IMG/VR virus record: IMGVR_UViG_3300005663_000197
Coordinates: 1 to 23,767 of that record
Direction: 5' to 3' (one strand)
Length of the DNA: 23,767 nt
Origin: a virus
Part shown: positions 11,814 through 22,816 of the stretch, piece by piece
How positions within the stretch are numbered: position 1 is the stretch's first letter
Layout of the letters: every line of letters starts with the position of its first letter
Position numbers and translations under genes: made by a program
Notes under the pieces: model-generated
The model's input: the letters and a program-made list of their open reading frames with translations, nothing else
Told to the model about the DNA's origin: nothing
The model's database searches: none

Positions 11814-12219
11814 TTCAACTAAGGTACTGAGTAAAGGGACCAATAAACACGGGGATTGGAAACTGGTCAAGGTCTTAACTCAGGATACCGAATACACTAC
11901 CTTTGCTGATGGTGCTGAGAACCTTGCTCCTGGGACGGTCATTAACATCACCGATATGGACGAAGATGCTAAGGGTAAGAAGTTCAAGAAATATGATGTC
12001 ATCAACGGGTCACAGCCCACTCCAGAAAGCCCTGAGAAGCCCATAGAGCGTACTAAAGATAGGGATGCTATGATTATGGAGGCTATGTGGTTCAAGGAGC
12101 TAGGAAACCGCATTGGTGATAATAGCCTGGAAAGGGACTGGCCTAAAACTCACGAAAGGATTGCGAATGATTATTACCGTGAGATGGCGAAGCATACAGG
12201 GGTTAAGTTTGCAGAATAA
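11797..12219 (+). CDS. Putative OB-fold single-strand DNA-binding-like protein
   Basis: 140 residues with a strong AAGGAGG site. The first 70 residues form a strand-rich module, 'VLSKGTNKHGDWKLVKVLTQ' then 'YTTFADGAENLAPGTVINIT', with a pattern like small phage OB-fold proteins that bind single-stranded DNA. A Pro-rich linker (about 72-88) leads to a helical charged domain. It precedes the adenine methyltransferase by TAATG. The role in replication or recombination is inferred from pattern only. Confidence 0.6.
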   Translation: MNITVSSTKVLSKGTNKHGDWKLVKVLTQDTEYTTFADGAENLAPGTVINITDMDEDAKGKKFKKYDVINGSQPTPESPEKPIERTKDRDAMIMEAMWFKELGNRIGDNSLERDWPKTHERIANDYYREMAKHTGVKFAE

Positions 12220-12785
12220 TGTTGAAGCATGGGAGGCTCTTGGGGATGCCATTGTCCAGTAAGAAATACCAGATAATATATGCTGACCCACCTTGGGATA
12301 TGGGGTTTATAAAATTAAAGCGTAGACCTAACCAAGTGGAGATGCCTTATCCAACTATGAGCCTGCAGGAAATATGTAATATGGGGATAGATTTGAGGCC
12401 ATATCTAGCTAAAGACTGTGGTCTGTTTCTTTGGACTACTCATAAGTGGTTGCCTGATGCTTTTAAGGTTGTTAAGGACTGGGGTTTCAAATATCATTGC
12501 CTTCTAACGTGGGATAAGACTAATGGAATGTCTCTTTGTGGATTCACTAGACGGACAGAGTTTTTATTGTATGGGTATCGAGGTAAAATAAACGTCAACC
12601 AAAGAGGAAAGTTTATCCCTACGTTATTCACAGAGAAACTTACGGCACATTCAATAAAACCACAAGTTATCTATGATATTCTTGAGAGCAACACGCCCGA
12701 GCCACGCCTTGAACTCTTTGCTAGGCAGAAACGTGAAGGATGGGACTGCTGGGGCAACGAAGTAGAGAGTGATATAGAATTATGA
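12219..12785 (+). CDS. MT-A70 family DNA adenine N6-methyltransferase
   Basis: 188 residues. The catalytic DPPW motif is at 23-26 after a 'YQIIYA' strand, and 'MPYPTMSLQEI', 'LFLWTTHKWLPDAF', 'TRRTEFLLYGYRGK', 'IKPQVIYDIL' and 'RLELFARQKREGWDCWGNE' follow in the usual order. It transfers a methyl group from S-adenosylmethionine to N6 of adenine. There is no adjacent recognisable restriction enzyme of matching type, so protection of phage DNA or regulation is more likely than a full restriction system. TAATG and ATGA overlaps link it to both neighbours. Confidence 0.92.
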   Translation: MLKHGRLLGMPLSSKKYQIIYADPPWDMGFIKLKRRPNQVEMPYPTMSLQEICNMGIDLRPYLAKDCGLFLWTTHKWLPDAFKVVKDWGFKYHCLLTWDKTNGMSLCGFTRRTEFLLYGYRGKINVNQRGKFIPTLFTEKLTAHSIKPQVIYDILESNTPEPRLELFARQKREGWDCWGNEVESDIEL

Positions 12786-13060
12786 AGTGGAATGGCCTAA
12801 AAAGAGTCTCCAATAAACAAAAGAAAGAGGTAGCCCTTAGGTCGAAGCTCAAAAAAGAGCTATTAGAGGAACAAATCGCAGAACATGGCTTTACATTCTG
12901 TATGACTTGCGGTGGTCCCGGGGATTGGCGTGGTCTTTCCCTAAGTCACATTATCCCACTGAGCCGTGGAGGGAAAACGGAAAGGGGCAATGTGATTATA
13001 GAGTGCTACCCTGACCATCAGCGTTTTGAGAAGAAGCCGGAATTAAGGGGGAAGATATGA
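12782..13060 (+). CDS. Small HNH endonuclease family protein, 92 aa
   Basis: Begins by ATGA overlap with the methyltransferase. A basic N-terminal helix leads to an HNH domain with 'CMTCGGPGDW' (CxxC), 'LSHIIPLSRGGKTERGNVII' (conserved His and Asn) and 'ECYPDHQRFEKK' (the second Cys and His). Length matches the compact HNH proteins often coded near phage replication genes. It might nick or cut DNA during packaging or exclusion. The target is unknown. Confidence 0.85.
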   Translation: MKWNGLKRVSNKQKKEVALRSKLKKELLEEQIAEHGFTFCMTCGGPGDWRGLSLSHIIPLSRGGKTERGNVIIECYPDHQRFEKKPELRGKI

Positions 13061-14111
13061 AAGAGACTGGGATAATGATGTCCGGGGACCATCCAAAGAA
13101 GGTGCTGGATGGAATTAAGACACAGACTAGAAGGGTGATTAAGCCTCAGCCCATCGGTAAGTTTGGCGGAGTTAGTGAACGATTTGCTATGGCTAGTCAT
13201 TGTCCATATGGTCAGGTAGGCGACAGGCTGTACTTGGTGAGTCCGACATCCTGTACCGCTTGACAGATGATAGAATATATGCTATCCTTACAATGGAGGT
13301 GCAAGATGGAAGATATAAAACTGACGAATGGTGTCCTTCTCAAAGCTATCCCAGTCTCCCTCAACGAGGATTACATGGCAGGCTCGGATGGTCAAATCTA
13401 CTCACGAACAAAATACAAGGGCTTTGGGCGGAAGGAATACGTGGACTGGTATCCGCTAAAAGGTCACACTACGGGGAAATACTTAGCGATAACAATGAGC
13501 CACGAGAATCAGAGAACTACCAAGACTGTTCACCGTCTGATATGCATGACTTTTCATGGGATGCCCCTATACCCGTCATATCAGACCAGGCATTTAGATG
13601 GGAACGGACAAAACAACTTGCCAAGCAATCTGAAGTGGGGAACTCAAGAGGAAAACTGGATGGACAGAAAGATACACGGACACGGGAACGAGGGGCAAAA
13701 GCATCCAATGGCAAAGCTCACGGACTTCCAGATGAAGGCATTGAAATGGGCGGTAGAGGGCGGATTAGTCAGTCAGCACCACGCAGCGAAGGTTCTTGGG
13801 ATGTCGCAGGCTGGCATCTCCGCAGTTGTCCATCGACAATCCTTAGATTAAGACCCTCAATCCATATGCCCCGATGGGCTTCCCGGATAACCCTTGAGAT
13901 TACTGAGGTCAGAGTGGAGAGGATTAGGGAAATAACTGAGGAAGATGCAAAATCAGAGGGCATTATCGGGGTGCATACTGCTATGGGCGTTCTATATAAA
14001 CCAGCCTTTTCTCGCTTGTGGGATTCCCTCAATGCCAAACGTGGCTATGGATGGGAAGTCAACCCCTGGCTGTGGGCCTTAACCTTCAAACTAATTTCAC
14101 AAAAGACTTGA
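13057..14111 (+). pseudogene. ASCH-domain protein gene split by a homing endonuclease and a one-base frameshift
   Basis: The N-terminal part, in the frame of 13057, reads 'KVLDGIKTQTRRVIKPQP' and 'CPYGQVGDRLYL', the start of a well-known phage ASCH-domain (PUA-like) family, then goes out of frame at about 13236 and stops at 13263. In the frame of 13200 the family continues as 'ESDILYR...GRYKTDEW' up to 13331, and resumes at 13851 with 'RPSIHMPRWASRITLEITEV' and 'DSLNAKRGYGWEVNPWLW'. Adding one base and removing 13332-13850 (519 bases) gives a 178-residue protein, the normal family length. The intervening bases code for an HNH endonuclease in the other frame. Read-through in the ASCH frame is fully open across the insert. 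Confidence 0.85.
13306..13851 (+). CDS. NUMOD4/HNH-type homing endonuclease nested in the ASCH gene
   Basis: 181 residues from the ATG at 13306, which has GGAGGTG five bases upstream; a weaker in-frame ATG exists at 13267. Residues 11-40 ('LKAIPVSLNEDYMAGSDGQI') match the NUMOD4-like DNA-binding start. The HNH domain spans about 74-120 with 'VHRLICMTFHG', 'RHLDGNGQNNLPSNLKWGT'. A C-terminal helix-turn-helix is at about 137-178. The ribosome site, start codon and first eight codons lie in the ASCH sequence, and the stop TAA spans the right junction. There is no room for an intron, so it is a bare mobile endonuclease. Confidence 0.85.
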   Translation: MEDIKLTNGVLLKAIPVSLNEDYMAGSDGQIYSRTKYKGFGRKEYVDWYPLKGHTTGKYLAITMSHENQRTTKTVHRLICMTFHGMPLYPSYQTRHLDGNGQNNLPSNLKWGTQEENWMDRKIHGHGNEGQKHPMAKLTDFQMKALKWAVEGGLVSQHHAAKVLGMSQAGISAVVHRQSLD

Positions 14112-14136
14112 CAAACAAGGCAATGAAGTTTATTAT
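14108..14136 (+). promoter_or_regulatory. Sigma-70 promoter P2, leaderless for the DUF5659-like gene
   Basis: TTGACA (14108-14113) overlaps the ASCH stop codon, and TATTAT (14131-14136) follows after exactly 17 bases. The ATG at 14145 is eight bases beyond the -10, at the expected transcription start. AAAAGACTTGACAA is shared with P1. Confidence 0.8.
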
Positions 14137-15736: not shown

Positions 15737-15892
15737 ATGACAGACGAAGAAGCAAAGAAACTAGCAGAAGAACATTGGGCTTACACAGAAAAGATACTAG
15801 GAGTCGTTGCGACCAGTTCCGTGCTGATAACGCAACTGAAAACAGTCTACATTCTCGCTTTTATTCACGGGATAAAACACGGGACCAAATAA
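15737..15892 (+). CDS. Small phage protein, 51 aa
   Basis: Nine bases after the ATPase, with AAAGGAG at good distance. The pattern, an acidic start 'EEAKKLAEEHWAYTEKIL', then a hydrophobic middle and 'YILAFIHGIKHG' near the end, is like a common short protein in siphovirus early operons that ends with 'AFxHGxKHG'. Function unknown. A longer frame starting at 15775 overlaps it but does not carry a ribosome site; the real neighbour starts at 15919. Confidence 0.75.
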   Translation: MTDEEAKKLAEEHWAYTEKILGVVATSSVLITQLKTVYILAFIHGIKHGTK

Positions 15893-15918
15893 CCCCATCA
15901 GTTAAGGAGTTTGAGAAG

Positions 15919-16539
15919 ATGAAAGAATATCATAAAATTCAAAGTATCTACAAGAGGGATGAACAAACCCATAAGTTCATCGAGGGTAACTTTTCACTCC
16001 CAGAGTTCGAGTACCTGAAAGATAATAAGTGGGAGTTTACCGAGAAGATTGACGGCACAAACATCCGTATTGGTTGGAATGGCGTGGCTATGAACATTGG
16101 TGGGAGAACGGACAATGCTCAGATACCTACTTACCTGTACCAGAAACTCACGGAGCTTTTCAGTGATGAGAAGTTAGCATCAGTCTTTCCTGACGCCGAT
16201 GATGTAATGCTCTGTGGTGAGGGATACGGTGCTAAGATACAAAAAGGTGGTGGTAACTATATCCCTGACGGCGTAGACTTCATTCTCTTTGATGTGCTAA
16301 TCGGTGATTGGTGGCTGAGAAGGTATGATGTTGAAGACATAGCTCTATCGCTTGGCATTAAGACTGTACATATTATTGGTCGAGGTACATTAGAAGATGC
16401 CGTGCAGGGTGTTAAGAATGGTGTCACTTCTGCCTTCGGTGATTTCCTTGCTGAAGGATTAGTGATACGTCCTACCACCGAACTCAAAACGAGAAGCGGA
16501 CACCGCATTATCACGAAACTCAAACATAAAGACTTCTAA
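15919..16539 (+). CDS. ATP-dependent RNA ligase (Rnl family)
   Basis: 206 residues from the ATG at 15919, preceded by a modest AAGGAG. The nucleotidyltransferase motifs appear in order: motif I 'EKIDGTNIR' with the adenylated Lys43, motif III 'CGEGYGAKIQKGG', IIIa 'DFILFDVLIGDWWL', IV 'EGLVIRP' (179-185) and V 'KLKHKDF' (Lys200, Lys202). It joins RNA ends after self-adenylation, and in phages is often an RNA-repair enzyme that counters host tRNA cleavage. It is short and lacks a clear accessory domain. A partner kinase is not in the window. Confidence 0.9.
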   Translation: MKEYHKIQSIYKRDEQTHKFIEGNFSLPEFEYLKDNKWEFTEKIDGTNIRIGWNGVAMNIGGRTDNAQIPTYLYQKLTELFSDEKLASVFPDADDVMLCGEGYGAKIQKGGGNYIPDGVDFILFDVLIGDWWLRRYDVEDIALSLGIKTVHIIGRGTLEDAVQGVKNGVTSAFGDFLAEGLVIRPTTELKTRSGHRIITKLKHKDF

Positions 16540-18629: not shown

Positions 18630-19066
18630 AACCGGACCAGATAATTACTCTGAGAGATAAACCTTGTCAGATTGAGTTGCCCGCAGCTGATATTAAAGCC
18701 GCGGTTGCCGATGCCTTTTCTGTGTCGGTCGAGGTCTTAGAAAGTAAGGGCCGGGAGGATTATATCGCATTAGCCAGGCAAGTAGCCATGTATTTAATCC
18801 GGCAGAATACGTCTTTATCTCTATTGGAAACAGGAAGTTACCTGGGGGATCGGAGCCCGGCCACTGTATCTTTTGGTTACCAGAAAATAGCCAATGCGCT
18901 TAACGATAATCCCTGCTTAAAAGGGAAGGTTGATGAAATTAAGAGAGTGTTAAAAGGAGTATTAAAACAGGTTTGCGGGTGTCTCCCGATCTCAAAACTA
19001 TCGGTTCCGGATGCGGAATGGGGGGAGCGGAAGAAACCGAGCCCGCAAGCCGAAGGAGTAATATGA
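18626..19066 (+). CDS. Stand-alone DnaA domain IV-like DNA-binding protein (copy B)
   Basis: 146 residues from the ATG at 18626, which has GGAGG at good distance and overlaps the previous stop; an in-frame ATG at 18587 gives an unlikely extension. Residues about 24-105 match DnaA domain IV: 'VADAFSVSVEVLESKGREDY', 'ALARQVAMYLIRQ', and 'GDRSPATVSFGYQKIA' (74-89) as the recognition region. It is a paralogue of copy A, but with a longer N-terminus and a C-terminal tail having two Cys. There is no ATPase domain. It may bind the nearby origin-like repeats. Confidence 0.8.
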   Translation: MKPDQIITLRDKPCQIELPAADIKAAVADAFSVSVEVLESKGREDYIALARQVAMYLIRQNTSLSLLETGSYLGDRSPATVSFGYQKIANALNDNPCLKGKVDEIKRVLKGVLKQVCGCLPISKLSVPDAEWGERKKPSPQAEGVI

Positions 19067-19899
19067 ATAAAACACAAATAGAATGGGCTTTGAATCCTGA
19101 TGGTACACCGGGCTACACCTGGAATCCGATTACCGGCTGCTTGAATGGTTGCGAATACTGCTACGCCCGGAAGTTGGCTAATACACGGCTTTTCAAACGG
19201 TATCTTGATGAGCGTGGTATCTTAGCTCCTGAATGGGATGGTGATATATCTAGCCAGATTGACCCCTTCTATCCCCGCTTTTGGGAAGATAGATTACTTG
19301 ACCTCAAGACGAAAAAACCTGGACGTCATATTTTCCACAAACCAAGGGGTATATTTGTTTGTGATATGTCCGACTTATTTGGCATAGGTGTGCCTACAGA
19401 ATGGACAGGAAAGGTGATGGACACCATTAAAGAATGTCCACAGCACCGCTTCTATCTCCTGACGAAGCAGCCACAGAACCTCATCAAGTTCAGCCCCTTC
19501 CCTGATAACTGTTACGTTGGGATTACTGCTACTGATGCGCAGTCTTGTTTGAGCGGGTTAAGGGGATTAGAAGAAGTTGGTGCTCACGTCAAGTTCATTA
19601 GTTTTGAGCCGCTACTTGGCCATATTGGCGGTCTGTGGCTTGAAGATTGGCTAAAGAGTGGAACAGGTATATCTTGGGTCATTCTAGGTAGCCAGACAAA
19701 GCCCACAGCGATGCCAAAAATAGAGTGGGTTCAGGAGATAGTCGAGGCTGCGGATAAGGTTGGGGTCAAAGTGTTCCTGAAGCATAACCTCTATCCGCTA
19801 ATACTCAAGGAAGGGTGGGCAAACGACATATTTTGGCGACCACAACCTAATCGATTATTAGATTCAGAATTAAGGCAGGAGATACCTAATACACATTAA
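19063..19899 (+). CDS. DUF5131 (phage Gp37/Gp68 family) protein
   Basis: 278 residues from the ATG at 19063 with GAAGGAG in front. The start 'KTQIEWALNPDGTPGYTWNP' followed by 'ITGCLNGCEYCYARKLA' has a radical-SAM-like CxxxCxxC (Cys26, Cys30, Cys33). Later come 'IFVCDMSDLFG', 'HRFYLLTKQPQNL' and 'ISFEPLLG', all signatures of the Gp37/Gp68 family found in phages and mobile elements. Its reaction is not known to me; members often sit near a three-Cys-motif partner, which is not visible here. It starts a run of accessory genes and ends at the second 64-bp repeat. Confidence 0.9.
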   Translation: MNKTQIEWALNPDGTPGYTWNPITGCLNGCEYCYARKLANTRLFKRYLDERGILAPEWDGDISSQIDPFYPRFWEDRLLDLKTKKPGRHIFHKPRGIFVCDMSDLFGIGVPTEWTGKVMDTIKECPQHRFYLLTKQPQNLIKFSPFPDNCYVGITATDAQSCLSGLRGLEEVGAHVKFISFEPLLGHIGGLWLEDWLKSGTGISWVILGSQTKPTAMPKIEWVQEIVEAADKVGVKVFLKHNLYPLILKEGWANDIFWRPQPNRLLDSELRQEIPNTH

Positions 19900-22351: not shown

Positions 22352-22816
22352 ATGAACTTACAGCCGATAACATTAAAGGAAGCTATGCGGTTTGTGAATG
22401 ACAACCATCGGCATCATAGGGCGCCTCAAGGTGGTCTATTCGCAATTGGTTTATCAGAGAGAGATATTGTTATTGGAGTGGCAATCGTTGGTAGACCTGT
22501 GGCTCGTATGCTTCAAAATGGTTATACGGCTGAAGTGACTCGTCTGTGTGTAAAAGAAGGCTACTATAATGCGTGTTCGATGCTTTACTCGGCTTGCTGG
22601 AGAGCTGCTAGGGCTATGGGATACAAACGCTTGATAACCTATATACTCCAATCCGAGAGTGGTAAATCTCTTGAGGCATCGGGTTATAAGTTAGTCGGTG
22701 AAGCAGGTGGTGGAACCTGGAATAGAGAAGACAGGCCAAGGGTTGACACTCATCCAACAGAGCAGAAGAAACTATTTGAAGTAGTCAAAGTAAAGAGTGG
22801 AGGTGCTGAAAGATGA
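22352..22816 (+). CDS. XF1762-like GNAT-fold acetyltransferase
   Basis: 154 residues with a GGAGGAG site. The pattern 'DNHRHHRAPQGGLFAIGL', 'VIGVAIVGRPVARMLQNG', 'AEVTRLCVKEGYYNACSMLY', 'RAARAMGYKRLITYIL' and 'ESGKSLEASGY' matches the XF1762 family of phage proteins related to GNAT acetyltransferases. It probably modifies a small molecule, protein or nucleotide using acetyl-CoA, but the substrate is not known. Confidence 0.85.
   Translation: MNLQPITLKEAMRFVNDNHRHHRAPQGGLFAIGLSERDIVIGVAIVGRPVARMLQNGYTAEVTRLCVKEGYYNACSMLYSACWRAARAMGYKRLITYILQSESGKSLEASGYKLVGEAGGGTWNREDRPRVDTHPTEQKKLFEVVKVKSGGAER

Follow-up and report, generated by a model that had tools for sequence, protein, structure and literature searches.

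How can an endonuclease gene be lodged within another gene, in a different reading frame, and the host gene still be read? The question is raised by a locus in a virus record of 23,767 bases, the whole of which we call the window. Here an ORF for an HNH endonuclease (ATG at 13306, TAA at 13849–13851) is nested within an ASCH-like gene, on the same strand and in frame +1 relative to it. The reading that we favor, with a probability of about 0.8, is that of a selfish HNH homing element which resides in ASCH-like phage genes and does without splicing. The features of the window are listed below; L060 is the contig with the nearest relative of the locus.

13057–13263, + strand: N-terminal part of the ASCH-like gene (PHROG 874), a 68-aa ORF (phrog_874, E = 6e-13; alignments to 80 loci)
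To about 13239, + strand: end of the conserved N-terminal sequence (..CPYGQVGDRLYL), with TGA at 13261–13263
13236–13253, + strand: left junction with frameshift, 37 nt (net) shorter than in L060
13249–13850, + strand: putative mobile element; left edge approximate, DNA identity with L060 jumping at about 13249 and dropping past 13851
13254–13292, + strand: YRLTDDRIYAILT segment in the ASCH-frame reading, part of the element in most copies
13260–13288, + strand: promoter-like TTGACA-17-TATCCT with extended -10, overlapping the YRLTDD segment
13295–13301, + strand: Shine-Dalgarno sequence GGAGGTG of the HNH gene
13306–13851, + strand: HNH_3 homing-type endonuclease of 181 aa with an HTH-like C-terminal end (PF13392, phrog_59)
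13197–14111, + strand: open stretch of 304 codons in the ASCH frame, covering insert and C-terminal part
13851–14111, + strand: C-terminal part of the ASCH-like gene (RPSIHMPRWASR...; phrog_874, E = 1.2e-32)

The two parts of the host gene thus match PHROG 874, members of which are annotated as ASCH in several phages. Two intact relatives scored 14.9 and 18.8 bits against Pfam ASCH (PF04266), below the cut-off of 21.2. A fold search with an insert-bearing relative gave ASCH, YqfB and DUF984 structures as best matches, all weak (E 0.04–0.3). We call the gene ASCH-like because it falls below the Pfam cut-off though its best, if weak, fold matches are ASCH. Intact genes of this kind have a YRAD/YRATD motif in their second loop, similar to YRLTDD; one insert-free example (L101) is close to the gene of Aeromonas phage ST4.

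The nested ORF matches HNH_3 (PF13392) with E = 2.6e-8 and 33.8 bits (cut-off 24.8) and phrog_59 with E = 1.7e-28; residues H76, H96, D98, N103 and N108 are invariant in the alignment. These matches confirm what an earlier note, made by a model from the letters alone, had claimed: an HNH endonuclease coded in another frame within the ASCH-like gene. Its stop codon does lie at the right junction, where the ASCH-like C-terminal part (RPSIHMPRW) shares the last base of the stop. The note also spoke of an antisense-frame insert; in fact both overlapping frames, HNH and ASCH, are read from one strand. An AlphaFold model of the HNH protein, built from 11 sequences, had a mean pLDDT of 59.6 and was set aside as poor.

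The surroundings deserve a brief description. A second, unrelated HNH gene (PF01844; 12782–13060) lies directly 5′ of the ASCH-like gene, its stop overlapping the ASCH start (ATGA), and an MT-A70 methyltransferase gene occupies 12219–12785. The gene directly 5′ of ASCH in L082 and L084 is apparently DUF5131-like, as recognized by eye; the window has a DUF5131 gene at 18973–19899. Farther along are genes for an RNA ligase (15775–16539; PF09414, E = 1e-17) and a Mom-family protein (22352–22813; PF25680), the latter suggesting modified phage DNA. A near-consensus promoter-like sequence, TTGACA-17-TATTAT, is found at 14108–14136, right at the ASCH stop.

Where does the element begin? The N-terminal part of the window gene (13057–13263) is in frame 1, and the insert and the C-terminal part are open in frame 0. 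In L060 all parts share one frame, and there are 37 nt more (net) between GACAGGCTG and TACCGC. DNA similarity of the two loci is about 50% over the N-terminal part and rises to about 89% from about 13249; identity falls after 13851. The YRLTDD segment 5′ of the HNH gene recurs in copies placed elsewhere in ASCH, the motif being absent in L084 and L178. Both the similarity jump and the recurring segment place the left junction near 13249 and not at 13331, as first proposed, and the insert measures about 600 nt instead of 519. With the element starting at about 13249, the Shine-Dalgarno sequence, the ATG and the first codons belong to it and travel with it; they are not borrowed from ASCH. The YRLTDD segment was probably taken for ASCH because intact genes have the similar YRAD/YRATD.

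The claim that the ASCH frame is open through the insert, resuming in the same frame with RPSIHMPRW at 13851, is right in part: the stretch 13197–14111 is open and the family sequence does resume there, but the N-terminal part is in a different frame. The longer ASCH product envisaged earlier is therefore not to be expected from the window, although in 12 relatives it is readable. A -1 ribosomal frameshift was considered as a rescue, and no slippery heptamer was present in 13190–13263. Searching contigs with the window's element returned only that of L060, and with its right flank, none. Among the loci found, no element-free allele was near enough to place the junctions to the base. The window copy is a partly decayed example of the element: as the left-junction indel breaks the host reading, production of the endonuclease is likely and that of a complete ASCH protein unlikely.

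Alternatively, the two halves of the window gene could be separately translated subunits, a gene in pieces. The N-terminal part ends at its own TGA, and an ATG at 13293 could start the C-terminal part in its frame. We consider this unlikely: that ATG is a candidate start with no ribosome site of its own assigned to it, 12 relatives keep a single ORF, and the indel may be a sequencing error in a metagenomic contig.

The ribosome sites of the endonuclease gene differ among copies. The Shine-Dalgarno sequence before its start is strong in the window (GGAGGTG); among the 14 copies described below it is good in five, weak in two and not clear in seven, which leaves translation of these seven unexplained. 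A sigma-70 promoter (TTGACA-17-TATCCT) 5′ of the HNH gene was rejected, since three sites of this type were found against 3.0 expected by chance; nor is the sequence conserved in all copies. L083 and L091 keep the amino acids of the YRLTDD segment and have lost the promoter hexamer, so the conserved feature is rather the peptide.

Scans of viral and genome contigs brought the family to 14 distinct copies, the window included. The 13 others (L060, L082–L085, L089–L091, L096–L098, L099 and L178, to which L179 is identical) are spread over divergent phage contigs and, in one case (L099), a contig from a Syntrophaceae MAG. The latter was the only yield of the second genome-contig scan; a first, with six sequences, gave no copy. 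All 14 lie inside an ASCH-like gene in the same relative frame, one of these genes being a remnant. In 12, N-terminal part, insert and C-terminal part form one ORF with conserved motifs kept, the exceptions being the frame-broken window and the remnant L098. In L098 (2739–3623) an intact HNH gene, its host frame still stop-free, is left with ASCH mostly deleted around it, apparently a stage of decay. A Klebsiella plasmid HNH gene (H81) adjoins dnaE; it is adjacent, not nested.

Three insertion arrangements were seen. In most copies KPQP and GxRLWVRE flank the element, and the first variable loop is gone. In the window and L060 the element lies between GDRLW and RPSIHMPRW, the second loop being mostly or wholly missing, and in L178, where both loops are present, its neighbors are GDRL and GSRLWVRE. 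The arrangements fit a transfer by recombination in conserved motifs that removes the intervening variable loop. They are also more variable than strict homing predicts, which counts against the homing-element reading.

What keeps the host gene readable? Within the insert, ASCH-frame stops number zero in 14 of 14 copies. When the HNH protein was held fixed and each gene's own synonymous codons were permuted, 3.2–9.6 such stops were expected per copy, with P from 0.018 down to <5e-5 for each (0.00015 for the window copy alone). Stops are not depleted in the third frame. In this phase a stop arises only where a T-ending codon precedes AA, AG or GA, and in 13 copies T-ending codons are used there in 0 of 465 cases against 397 of 1320 elsewhere (Fisher P = 1e-60). 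A joint P is not to be taken literally because the copies are related. Despite this kinship, however, their protein identity is 55–81%, a distance over which synonymous sites have been substituted repeatedly.

Could the ASCH-frame reading of the insert be a functional protein segment, making this true dual coding and not just tolerance? The YRLTDD block, which lies outside the HNH coding region, varies by 0.41, 0.27 and 0.57 at ASCH codon positions 1, 2 and 3, over eight codons only, and is modeled by AlphaFold as a hairpin and a helix with moderate confidence. Against this, conservation in the overlap averages 35% in the ASCH frame vs. 64% in the HNH frame, the ASCH-frame reading of the insert is predicted to be disordered, and L084 and L178 do without the YRLTDD motif. 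Functional dual coding is accordingly doubtful. The element may once have captured the motif from an ASCH gene.

It is less probable still that HNH codon usage or base composition alone leaves the frame open and that the ASCH gene is dead. The frame-broken window copy and the ASCH remnant of L098 would suit such a view, as would the free-standing HNH gene of Petruchio, which also has zero stops in that frame. But the other nine of ten free-standing relatives carry 4–30 stops in the corresponding frame, and the ten use T-ending codons in 144 of 404 cases before AA, AG or GA and 282 of 899 elsewhere, that is, without avoidance. Adding the fourteenth copy (L178, 0 of 35) makes the count in the nested genes 0 of 500. 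The ASCH frame stays stop-free even at 38% GC (L084), and 12 copies have both ASCH halves in frame with motifs conserved. A dead ASCH gene is possible for the window copy alone and strongly disfavored at the level of the family: what keeps the host frame free of stops is selection, not chance.

Removal of the insert from the host product as an RNA intron or a protein intein is scarcely credible, and the earlier note rightly saw neither around the HNH gene: although HNH genes are frequently carried by group I introns, and relatives of the window HNH lie in interrupted phage genes (e.g., the phage Silence terminase and the ULINTec6 primase), the HNH gene takes up all of the element except the first 55 nt or so at the left and thus leaves no room for an intron core, no group I catalytic core or intron-type Rfam match at E ≤ 5 was found, introns need no stop-free host frame yet 14 of 14 copies have one, and no Pfam intein model matches the ASCH-frame reading, the endonuclease not being in frame with the host.

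How, then, might a selfish homing element without splicing operate here? Translation of the endonuclease would begin at its own start codon in the +1 frame, and ribosomes making the host protein would stay in the host frame and pass through the element. The resulting ASCH protein would carry some 170–200 additional aa in a loop, for the most part unstructured. Such a product is plausible from modeling: in the AlphaFold model of the L083 ORF the ASCH halves are mostly at pLDDT 70–94 and the insert (residues 118–226) is mostly below 50, with a hairpin and helices at its start at moderate confidence. Selection for a readable host gene has purged host-frame stops from the endonuclease gene. The element presumably cuts element-free ASCH genes and is copied in by repair. 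Likely homology arms are the conserved ASCH motifs KTQTRR-KPQP, GDRLWVRE and RPSIHMPRW on either side, and their acting as arms would explain the loss of the adjoining variable loop. The sequences themselves show the nested frames, the avoidance of stops, the one HNH clade and the decoupled histories; the read-through product and its activity, as well as cleavage and homing, are what we infer.

The relationships among copies bear on mobility. Mean identity is 64% for the HNH proteins vs. 45% for the ASCH C-terminal flanks, the flank comparison resting on short, divergent segments. The two identities are uncorrelated (r = -0.2), HNH being the higher in 98% of 66 pairs. Such decoupling is as expected of a mobile element, and the distribution suggests that this one is mobile. 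The overprinted HNHs group in a single clade (99/98), whose sister clade (91/91) consists of the HNHs of Aeromonas phage ST4 (L086, 2237–3343; ST4_051, OR261032) and contig L100, where a related HNH_3 is fused in frame in the same ASCH-like host gene. There a single fused protein results, in contrast to the out-of-frame HNH of the window type. Since the sister of the out-of-frame clade sits in frame in ASCH, the HNH lineage seems to be associated with ASCH genes whether in frame or out of frame. ST4_051 is annotated as a hypothetical protein, and because host ORFs get called so, nested nucleases are missed by annotation.

The earlier note knew of no well-described case of this arrangement, but there is a precedent. 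In the ShiLan domain, first described in PMC9957025, phage methylases harbor an HNH that is encoded out of frame (Arsenault et al., 2025; PMC11855218). The latter paper does not mention ASCH, and a literature search, mostly outside subscription journals, found no further report of such elements. The likenesses are an HNH_3 in another frame of the host gene, a stop-free host frame, no intron or intein, a stop codon at the right edge and, apparently, a patchy distribution. In the ShiLan genome that we checked, the host frame is also stop-depleted (0 vs. 2.3 expected, P = 0.016). There the HNH is in the other phase (+2, vs. +1 here), and only the HNH_3 core is shared with the HNH of the ASCH elements, with 33% identity over 64 aa. 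The host is a methylase there and ASCH-like here; the HNH C-terminus has zinc fingers there and is HTH-like here; and ShiLan is reported to lack the Shine-Dalgarno sequence that half of the ASCH-element copies have. Unlike ShiLan, the ASCH element comes in 14 divergent copies and brings an extra host-frame segment.

Other homing endonucleases differ more. Phage Aeh1 mobE in nrdA and T4 mobA in the topoisomerase gene are also inserted without splicing, but there the host gene ends up in pieces that are translated separately, whereas the ASCH element keeps the host frame open. The free-standing HNH_3/NUMOD4 phage homing endonucleases (Twort, Ibantik, Microcystis phage Mae-Yong1326-1) have homologous HNHs; they are not overprinted and have stops in the corresponding frame.

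The ASCH elements are thus an independent second family of the ShiLan kind, in which neither RNA nor protein splicing is needed. We think it rather probable that a recurrent further mode of gene occupation exists besides the intron, the intein and the free-standing gene, one in which synonymous choice keeps the host frame stop-free and the host is translated through, and that the ASCH elements and ShiLan came to it independently and in different phases. ShiLan, a single recent curiosity, would then become one instance of a strategy that recurs, and statistics speak for selection in the host frame. A selfish gene would be limited in its choice of codons by the reading frame of the gene that hosts it. 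Such loci may also offer a natural test bed for gene overprinting, as one knows in principle which gene invaded, in what direction, and what the two products are.
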